Source: Sphaerolaimus hirsutus (taxonomy: Eukaryota; Nematoda; Chromadorea; Monhysterida; Sphaerolaimidae). Taken from it: 64,000 bases of DNA. Position numbers and translations under genes: made by a program. The notes beneath the pieces were generated by a model. That model worked only from the letters and a program-made list of their open reading frames with translations, was not told the origin of the DNA and made no database searches. The stretch is taken from contig OZ038457.1 in assembly GCA_964036195.1 (NCBI GenBank), forward strand, positions 8,583,147-8,647,146. Reading direction: 5' to 3'. This document shows positions 508 through 19,372 of the stretch, one piece after another; within the stretch, counting starts at the first letter, position 1; every line of letters starts with the position of its first letter.

Positions 508-3500
508 CTGCGGGCAGTCCCAGACACTGTAAAAGCCCTGTAAATTCTCAAATGTCATGCAAAAAGTCAAAAGTCATGATAAATGTCCGGTAAAATGGCA
601 AACACGTTTGCCGTTTTACCGGGCATTTTACATTACTTTTGACACTTTGCATGACATTTTACAGGGCTTTTTACAGGGTCTGGGACTGGCACCAGCTCGC
701 GGCCGGACGCCTTCACGATGGGCGTGTTGTCGTATTTGATGTAAATTATGAGAACGGCCACCGTGAGCACTATGCCCAGCGCGGCCACGCAGCACGGCAC
801 TACGCTGAAATGGGGGGGGGGGGTATTTGAGGTACCTATATGTGGGGAAGATGGTGGGATTTATCAAGACTTTAAATGATATGGTAAATATTGTTGAATA
901 CCTAATATTTAGCATTATCGTTGCTGACAAGTTCTTTTTATAGTCACCGAAAACACTGTTGTCGCACTCGGCACATTGGCAGGTTCACAACCCAAAACAC
1001 TAAAATATCTCGAATGGCCCAACAACCAAATGATTCTCTGACCTAATCACCATCCCACAAACTGCAAAAATTACGAAAAAAACTTATGGCCGCCAAACCT
1101 GTACGCGCTTGTCCACCTCATATACTGGGCTGGCAGGAGAAAACACATGGTTCTGTTCACATTTGGCCACCAGCCAAGTGGACAATCCTCGCATTGGGTA
1201 GCATTGCTCAGATATTGATGGTCGCCGCAGGGTCGGCACGCCCTGGGGGCCGTCCCAGAACCTGTAAAATGCCCTGTAACATGTCAAATGACACGCAAAG
1301 TGTCAACGCCATGTAAAAGGTCCTGGAAAATGGCAAGCGACTTAGGTTTGCCATTTTCCAGAGCATTTTACGTGATTTTTGACACTTTGCATGTCATTTG
1401 ATATTTGCCAATGCATTTCACATGACTTTTGACACCATGCATGCCATTTTTCATTTGCCAGGGAATTTTTTTAATGACTTTTGACACTTTGCACTTGACA
1501 TTTCCCAGGACATTTTACATGACTTTTTCCACTTTACATGTCACTTGACATTTCACAGGTTCTGGGATGAGCACCAGCAGCAGTGGGTCTCGTCGCCGGC
1601 GCCGGCGAGCATCTTCATCTGGCCCACGGCGCACGGCACCGAGCAGACGGACAGGGGCGCGCCCGTGCCGCTCAGCCAGCCGCTAGGGTCGTCGGAAGAC
1701 AACTTAGAGCCTGGGGAGTTTTGAGAGGGTGGCAACGAATTTCGAACCCTTGTGGCGACATGGTTTTTAAATGTTTTTTTTTGTGAGTGAGATAAATCTA
1801 GTCTTTCAGTGGACACAGGTTCAGTCAAACTCACAGACACATGGCCGCACTTGTGCAGAAAGTGTCAGTTGAATTAAAAAGAATGCAACTGACTAAATAC
1901 CAAAGAGCATCAGAAAAAAACAGGGCAAGCCTGACAAATCAAAAATAATCAAAAGATTCAGAATGAATAAGCCAGACAATACACAATCACCTGCATAATG
2001 AGGTCTGAAGTTGATAATACACAACAAATAGCGAGTGATCCGTGAGTGGATTTGAATCAATATGATTGTGAAAGACATGGAATCTCTGAATGAATATTTA
2101 TGTAAAAAATGATAGATAATCATTCAGATATCAGAAGGAAGTAGGCTTCAATGTATCTTGTCTCCTCAAAGTAGCAGTGGCACACCCCTCAGTATAAACA
2201 CAGCAGCACTGTTCCCCCATCCCCATGTGCTGGCCCATGATAGGCGACACAGAATTATAAGTATTATTAAATGTCCTTGTCCTCTGCCATTCTGCCGGTT
2301 TGGCCCTTAATTCCACATTTGCCTGATCTTGCCCTTCAGGCAGAAGGTCCTGGTCTCCATGGAGCCAATAAGTCCTGGTGCTCCACAAGTTGTAGCCGAG
2401 CCACATGGCCAACAATAGCAGACCGAACCAATAGACCTCCCTGCCGCGTTCCCAGGCAAGTTGGGCTTTTTGCTCAGCTGAGGGCTGAGTTGGCCAGTTG
2501 CCAGAGGCCATGGCCAGCCTGGGAATTTGATTGAGAATGGTGGCTGGTAGTGATGGGTTGGAATGGGTTGGATGAGTGCCAGCATTTGATGGGTGTAAAT
2601 ATGTGTGATGGAAACCAGTTGGTATATTTAGTATATGTTCGGTTTAGTTGCCCGATGCAGCAGTGTGTTGCACAGAGGTTGAGCGGGGCGCTAGTTGCTG
2701 CGGGTTGCTTCATTTGCAGTCAGTTTTTTTGGACAAAATTTGCAGAAAATGCTGTTGAAAAGAAGCTACTCTTGAGAAAATGTGCTTTTTAATTTGTTTA
2801 GCTAAGCATAATTATTTTTTAATAAGCAGATTAAATATTAGAACACACGTACAATTTAAAATTCTAGCAAAGTCCGATAAACACACATTGTATGCTCATT
2901 AATATTTACCCAAGACCTATTCACTAAGGGCTAAAAATTCTATTAAACAACAAATCCGCAAAACATTCTAATGAAAATTCTAATCTCCAGGCTTCAGACT
3001 ATCACAAACACAGGTCTAGCCACCCAGAAGTCCAAAATATACTGAACACATGCTATGCTGTTTATATTATTTATGATGTATGGTTTACTATTTTGCACCG
3101 AATCGACACACTGGGTTTGTACTCCATACTCAGAATAATAATGCGCAAACATCATCATCGATCATGTCAAAAATATGCGCTCATGAAACTGCTGGAACAA
3201 ATGACGAGAGCACTATGTAAACATGTATTTAAATACAGAAAAATGTTTTGTGAATGTTAAAATGCTACAGGTATTTCAAGCTAAAGAGTTTCAAGTTCGG
3301 AATATAAATGCGAACGCCTGCCGAACAAACACATATTTACAACTTACCTATTAGCCCCACAAACACTAGTTGACAATGAAACGGGGTGTCAACTGCGCCG
3401 ATTGGCTTAGAGTCAGACTTTTGTCTATGATTCGAGAAACGATGATCAGGGGCCAGTTCCGAAAATTGACAATTGAGGAGTAAAATGGCAAATGCGAGGT

Positions 3501-19372: not shown

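Follow-up and report, generated by a model that had tools for sequence, protein, structure and literature searches.

The window, a stretch of 64,000 nucleotides (C13:8583147-8647146, within a 348-Mb genome of 762 contigs), carries on its minus strand a metabotropic glutamate receptor (mGluR) gene, recognized by Pfam matches to 7tm_3, ANF_receptor, and NCD3G. Four introns of this gene had been described in the original prediction as whole copies of one repeat, and all four were found in place with the repeat abutting the exons; the coordinates that follow are on the minus strand. E1 (508-692, 185 nt, phase 0 by homology) joins GREL to SYILL and has the ends GTGCCAGTCCCAGACCCTG...CTGGGACTGCCCGCAG (i.e., GTGCCAG...CCCGCAG); the preceding exon ends in CTG and the intron itself in CAG. 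The GTGC at its donor end (689-692) comprises, by sequence, the outermost bases of the terminal repeat, and its acceptor CAG (508-510) occupies the position of the downstream copy of a CWG target duplication. E2 (1243-1574, 332 nt, phase 2 by homology) joins CC to W, with CTG at the end of the preceding exon, CAG at the intron end, and the ends GTGCTCATCCCAGAACCTG...CTGGGACGGCCCCCAG, also written GTGCTCATCCCAG...GGCCCCCAG. E3 (17604-17931, 328 nt, phase 0 by homology) joins HIVQ to VSPAST and has the ends GTGCCCCTCCCAGACCCTG...GTGGGACGGCCCCCAG, also written GTGCCCCTCCCAG...GGCCCCCAG. It is flanked on both sides by CAG, the two copies of the target duplication: the upstream copy (17932-17934) forms the last three exon bases, and the downstream copy (17604-17606) the predicted 3' splice site. 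E4 (19074-19334, 261 nt) lies in the signal-peptide region, again between CAG on both sides, with the ends GTGCCAGTCCCAGACCCTG...TTGGGACTGCCCCCAG, also written GTGCCAGTCCCAG...CTGCCCCCAG. The phases previously claimed stood for E1 to E3 (0, 2, and 0) by homology, and the phase 2 of E4 by its open frame only.

In each of the four introns, GTGC directly follows the exon, CAG directly precedes the next one, and no foreign sequence lies between repeat and exon. The exon after E1, a seven-transmembrane segment (347-507, minus strand, its far end placed by eye at an AG/GTGGGT donor, where the slash marks the splice point), was matched at 346-510, and the 7tm_3 match extends across the E1 join (1.9e-28). 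The exon before E3, part of the ligand-binding domain (17932-18009, minus strand, far end approximate), was matched at 17926-18009, with an ANF_receptor match across the E3 join (1.1e-20). When a composite of three gene stretches with E1 to E3 removed was aligned with human mGluR2, the alignment was gap-free at all three joins and showed a two-residue gap just before CCW. The four introns are predicted to fold as long hairpins, with calculated minimum free energies of -106 to -147 kcal/mol.

The introns belong to a large family of short inverted-repeat elements. A sample of 53 copies located by a repeat finder (50 distinct, several at loci picked because a copy sits there) had a median length of 176 nt (range 108-499) and inverted arms of median length 81 nt that were 90% identical; the outer bases of the two ends differ, being GTGC at one end and GGGG (inverted) at the other. 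A genome-wide search with the terminus, as had been proposed for checking the prediction, gave 10,794 forward and 10,825 reverse matches to the 20-mer CAGTCCCAGACCCTGTAAAA at up to two mismatches (∼21,600 in total, with two matches possible per copy), compared to 0 for its reversed control in the 348-Mb genome. Stretches chosen by position (15 existing of 20, 150 kb) held five copies by the finder, one of them doubtful. The genome-wide number may thus be about ten thousand copies, a figure to be read strictly as an order of magnitude. Three further copies lie in the window away from any recognized exon border: 32066-32228 (plus strand, disturbed right end), 33496-33711 (minus strand), and a longer one at 53467-53965 (plus strand, CAG..CTG flanks). 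None of the three had a sense frame that stays open for 15 codons or more in both directions from the join; frame inspection revealed a long antisense open frame at 32066-32228 (122 and 37 codons). A 21-mer, CCAGTCCCAGACCCTGTAAAA, had no exact match in a collection of viral contigs searched as a test of viral transfer. The window also holds a second inverted-repeat element at 3447-3702, which lies within a large inter-exon stretch of the mGluR gene. Its terminal repeat is different (GGGCCAGTTCCG...CGGAACTGGCAC), yet its outer ends are similar and it too is flanked by CAG on either side, so other CWG families may exist here. Many copies of an inverted-repeat element with ends like ACCGTATTTCCTCGAAATACCCCCC occupy 34143-36980, 43168-44883, and 28327-28772.

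The donor-end 16-mer GTGCCAGTCCCAGACC occurs exactly 1846 times in the genome and is preceded by CAG in 850 cases and by CTG in 722, which amounts to 1572/1846 (85%) versus 3% expected with even bases. After the opposite end, GGTCTGGGACTGCCCC, CAG stands 989 times and CTG 732 times (exact matches, genome-wide). Pairing of exact ends on C1 among the matches listed, where CAG acceptors reach ∼32.1 Mb, gave 21 CAG/CAG, 16 CTG/CTG, 3 CTG/CAG, and 1 CAG/CTG pairs; the last, spanning 1018 bp, was dropped since its ends belong to two different copies. Left and right W agreed in 37 of the 40 paired perfect copies among the matches listed on C1, so the element duplicates CWG. A looser sample of 41 rows, some repeated, comprised 13 CAG/CAG, 6 CTG/CTG, and 1 CAT/CAT among the rows to which a direction was assigned, with discordant flanks in 6 CTG/CAG and 2 CAG/CTG rows and other combinations in the rest; this lower agreement is as expected of older copies. 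The CAG:CTG ratio at the acceptor (989:732) versus the donor (850:722) gave p = 0.054, and strong selection for AG is therefore not claimed. An excess of CTG..CAG over CAG..CTG (10 versus 2, p = 0.039) is weak evidence, as two samples are mixed and CTG..CAG is its own reverse complement.

This target preference resembles that of NuwaI, which belongs to the PHIS (PIF/Harbinger-ISL2EU-Spy) superfamily and for which passages of PMC4482050 describe CWG target site duplications (TSDs), terminal inverted repeats (TIRs) usually starting with GGG, and, in the survey made there, animal hosts only. The element shares with NuwaI, as portrayed in those passages (PMC4482050), the CWG duplication (here seen at occupied sites, from exact ends and pairs) and the animal host; of its two ends, the acceptor end (GGGG) has the GGG start usual in NuwaI TIRs, whereas the donor end starts with GTGC. 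The same passages of PMC4482050 do not describe NuwaI elements as introns. Mobilization of NuwaI elements involves a DDE transposase and a Myb/SANT protein that share their TIRs. The genome contains 163 matches to a PIF/Harbinger-like transposase domain, DDE_Tnp_4 (PF13359). One such stretch of 4.2 kb (L046) contained neither a TIR matching the element nor any inverted repeat of at least 12 nt, so the ends of the transposase element may lie beyond the 4.2 kb. The PF13359 family is uniform (e.g., C1:20514088-20514720, L046), many of the listed matches having nearly equal scores, and it carries four in-frame TGA, perhaps an intron. A zebrafish Harbinger element has a similar target, CCWGG. Judged by its sequence, the family appears to work like a NuwaI MITE, with the target duplication in agreement; no autonomous element with matching ends was found in the 4.2 kb read.

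These properties suggest how an insertion could make an intron. The transposon would insert at a CWG and duplicate the three bases; with the GTGC end upstream in the exon, the resulting order would be exon-CWG / GTGC...CCCC-CWG / exon. The element itself would then bring the 5' splice site GT, immediately following the CWG copy that stays in the exon, and the pyrimidine run CCCC together with the downstream CWG copy would make up the 3' end, C(A/T)G. Removal of GT...CWG would give back the original exon to the base, whatever the phase. For W = A, the product would be an ordinary GT-AG intron, predicted to be spliced at the places given by homology; for W = T, the same geometry would yield GT...TG. 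Many CTG copies may be removed as GT-TG introns and perhaps improved later by a change of T to A, a course that E1, E2, and other CTG..CAG copies weakly fit. Inspection of the initial 20 nt of the consensus showed GT donors at offsets 0, 6, and 18, and the internal AG acceptors closest to the other end lie 19 and 31 from it; it follows that, with these GT donors, the frame is kept by the terminal CWG only. Donors deeper in the element and exonic AGs provide other in-frame options, and the donor context CWG/GTGCCA is weak. We consider it very probable that each intron is a copy of a non-autonomous TIR transposon (a MITE) with NuwaI hallmarks that inserts at CWG and whose excision from the transcript restores the exon.

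Similar introns were found in several other genes, a result that addresses a further proposed check, on copies at exon borders. After removal of the element, the alignment was gap-free at the join in a cohesin SA gene, over 101 residues across the join in CNOT9, and at the join in BCKDHA, where one gap occurs further on. Pfam domains span the join in OSCP1 (two introns), two zinc fingers, a nucleobase permease, and a G protein-coupled receptor (GPCR); in the zinc finger at L014, the acceptor lies three bases further on (TTGCAG). For copies outside mGluR, all counted in the GTGC-first orientation, 9 of 23 sense peptides had a clear Pfam match across the join (L012 twice, L014 at 2125, L015, L030, L050, L052, L053, and L055). 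Weak matches across the join at L045 (7tm_1) and L042 (PARP_reg) were not counted, L008 had an LRR_6 match beside the join, and 11 of the 23 had no Pfam match (L005, L007, L014 at 1501, L018, L019, L020, L028, L033 twice, L047, and L049). One of 12 antisense peptides was matched, that of L026 to PI3/PI4 kinase (residues 11-64, join at 58); the match is doubtful, as its edge runs six residues past the join, and the exon was read by eye to stop at a GT that precedes the element by 11 nt. Open frames were compared in 38 non-redundant copies. With the element removed, 13/19 GT..AG copies had a frame open for 30 or more codons on each side of the join, versus 19.8% of 5748 random joins (p = 6e-6). 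The corresponding values were 4/10 for CTG copies (p = 0.12 versus random joins) and 3/9 for the remaining copies (p = 0.26), and antisense joins were open for at least 30 codons in 8/19 AG, 3/10 TG, and 4/9 other copies. The locus encoding OSCP1 (L012) contains at least two element-derived coding introns, one CAG-ended and one CTG-ended, and two more copies within the same 3 kb. Similarity reaching both exon borders was observed in mGluR E1 to E3, cohesin SA, OSCP1, CNOT9, BCKDHA, the permease, the GPCR, and the zinc fingers, together with the transposon signatures TIR and TSD. These features mark the family as a real animal introner family, with splicing predicted from frame and homology. 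The earlier claim that a MITE-type introner family is or was active is likewise supported, at the level of sequence, by the similar ends and matching target duplications of the copies. The CWG target duplication, the acceptor AG derived from it, and the CTG class go beyond that claim.

Unexpectedly, CTG copies are nearly as common as CAG copies, both in the C1 pairs among the matches listed and in the exact ends genome-wide, and they interrupt CNOT9, BCKDHA, OSCP1, a permease, a GPCR, and a zinc finger. Nine of the 16 listed C1 CTG/CTG pairs were fetched by their ends only. A sense frame was open for at least 18 codons on both sides in eight of these nine and for at least 26 in seven, several being open in antisense as well. 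Four of six submitted peptides crossed the join in Pfam (CNOT9, BCKDHA, permease, and GPCR), and L047 and L049 had no Pfam match across it; the submitted set left out L051, a near-identical partner of the GPCR, and L048 and L054 (in sense). The CTG-ended copies in OSCP1 (L012) and in the zinc finger at L030 also had Pfam matches across the join. If removed exactly, CTG-ended copies are GT...TG introns, and their presence in conserved genes implies such introns or else GC-AG alternatives with an altered protein. A more far-reaching and tentative reading, which we would put slightly below an even chance, is that hundreds to thousands of GT...TG introns are routinely spliced, a CWG-targeting transposon having supplied AG and TG acceptors in near-equal numbers and the spliceosome reading CWG, rather than CAG alone, as a 3' end, with a diverged U2AF1-like gene possibly contributing. 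Conserved U2AF1 was matched at C14:3032343-3038016 (67-73% per exon) and on the haplotig-like C720:101293-108657, and a diverged set, putatively U2AF1-like, at C16:15183243-15191469 (38-72%); U2AF2 is represented by one full set (C6) and fragments on C297 and C193. The two U2AF1-like sets beside one full U2AF2 set are a lead only.

An alternative that we regard as unlikely, yet deserving of attention, is that the CTG-ended exon copies use a GC donor two bases inside the element (GT/GCCAGT) with the acceptor TTTTACAG/GG, or other cryptic pairs. The GC-AG route is predicted to leave 21 nt (seven residues) in the mRNA, and this addition is in frame and stop-free in eight of nine coding CTG copies. 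In-frame GT-AG alternatives were likewise present in eight of the nine (none in L052), each listed one adding or deleting residues, and such protein-changing pairs exist in seven of the eight copies open to the GC-AG route (again none in L052); retention of residues has a precedent in some known introners, with 12 bp added in Aureococcus according to passages of PMC9860276. Against this, the copy in the L030 zinc finger begins with GTGG and thus lacks that GC donor, and the options it does have (an exon GC donor adding 12 nt, or GT donors changing the length by -9 to +72 nt) would change the finger. The context GGT/GCCAGT is poor, and seven extra residues would land where CNOT9 and BCKDHA are strongly conserved. 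Less probable still is the view that the CTG-ended insertions are not removed at all and represent broken or recessive alleles of the sequenced animal. Haplotig-like contigs do occur (C720 versus C14), and read-through of the coding CTG elements meets a stop in eight of nine and shifts the frame in L055, as that view would have it. However, there are 732 exact CTG acceptor ends in the genome, and the nine CTG..CTG copies fetched by their ends include five loci in four conserved gene families (L051 by its near-identity to L050); so many insertions into conserved genes make null alleles in one animal implausible.

Comparison of paralogs indicates that the introns were gained. An mGluR-like paralog on C2 has no intron-sized break over the E1, E2, and E3 joins, the E1 match being four codons longer than the query and the E2 match covering 38 residues; a second one, on C3, is uninterrupted over E1. 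As the positions of E1 to E3 are uninterrupted in a paralog on another chromosome, these introns are gains. For the intron of the GPCR genes at L050 and L051, all six other matches across the join were uninterrupted, four of them over at least 64 residues. The check on the age of the positions thus came out in favor of gain, with the intron absent from mGluR and GPCR paralogs (paralogs rather than orthologs having been compared). L050 and L051 (C1:8164298-8164771 and 8180680-8181181) are neighboring GPCR paralogs that share a CTG-ended intron (171 and 199 nt), and the insertion is probably older than their duplication. It is very improbable that ordinary old introns were later invaded, replaced, or filled by the MITE: such elements often sit in introns, and one antisense copy, at L026/L027, apparently lies within a PI3/PI4-kinase-like gene, 11 nt into one of its introns, but E1 to E4 contain no non-element sequence between repeat and exon, exon sequence is included in the target duplication, and the paralogs are uninterrupted at the same positions. 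Multiplication by reverse splicing of intron RNA, proposed for fungal introner-like elements and likewise expected to give introns similar from end to end, is scarcely credible here, since the long inverted repeats, the fixed 3-bp CWG duplication, and the copies outside recognized exons point to DNA transposition.

New introns are seldom caught together with their cause, and here the cause is visible. Because the insertion site of a target-duplicating transposon supplies the acceptor, intron creation would follow from the chemistry of the transposase, which offers a mechanism by which an animal gains introns. The ages of such introns may be readable from the divergence of the arms and of the target duplication, and the 3' splice site is put to a natural experiment, with AG-ended and TG-ended forms of the same intron coexisting in a single genome. 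As far as the literature listings show, the novelty lies in the CWG rule and what follows from it directly for the acceptor, in the scale reached within an animal genome, and in a possible GT-TG class. Among the matches listed from the PMC literature there was no CWG or PIF/Harbinger introner, and introner and harbinger occurred together in a fungal study. A follow-up introner survey by Gozashti and colleagues reportedly appeared in 2025 and may hold a prior description.

Among known systems, passages of PMC9860276 describe MITE-type introners in Micromonas, Aureococcus, Symbiodinium, and others, and the present family shares their common features: introns of many genes that resemble one another right up to the splice sites, TIRs with TSDs, and one splice site within the element with the other taken from the TSD. 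The combination of an element-borne donor and a co-opted acceptor is already known from Chrysochromulina, whose introners likewise carry the 5' splice site and co-opt the 3' splice site, according to the same source (PMC9860276). What differs from the MITE-type introners portrayed in those passages (PMC9860276) is the fixed CWG TSD, so that the base at the target decides between an AG and a TG acceptor; the host is also an animal, a setting in which that survey reports introners in only two groups. TG 3' splice sites have a U2-type precedent in 36 human genes, where passages of PMC2374985 present them as alternative sites; in contrast, TG here would be the sole end that allows exact removal with the GT donor, in possibly hundreds of introns. 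TG acceptors are also mentioned for Micromonas in parts of PMC3879977. In the larvacean Fritillaria borealis, introns often break the GT/AG rule, and duplicated U2AF1 and U2AF2 coincide with this, as stated in passages of PMC13326754. The main non-canonical 3' ends given there are AC or AT, with YAY triplets, whereas the introns described here are GT...CAG and GT...CTG (PMC13326754). The Fritillaria pattern, AG/AC or AG/AT with YAY in a larvacean host, was not found. In a 300-base piece of COX1, AGA stands at a position occupied by Ser in the best PDB match, a site that we take to be invariant; this argues against a tunicate, unlike Fritillaria. If true, the GT...TG reading would nevertheless be a parallel to Fritillaria in another lineage. 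The introner elements of the dinoflagellates Amoebophrya, as characterized in passages of PMC7789003, have hairpin-forming inverted repeats, direct repeats of 3-5 nt at their borders, and non-canonical ends, as the present elements do. Their splice sites are very diverse (PMC7789003), whereas here one family has fixed ends. With its hairpins, direct repeats, and non-canonical ends, the Amoebophrya system in those passages (PMC7789003) is the nearest case to the family described here.
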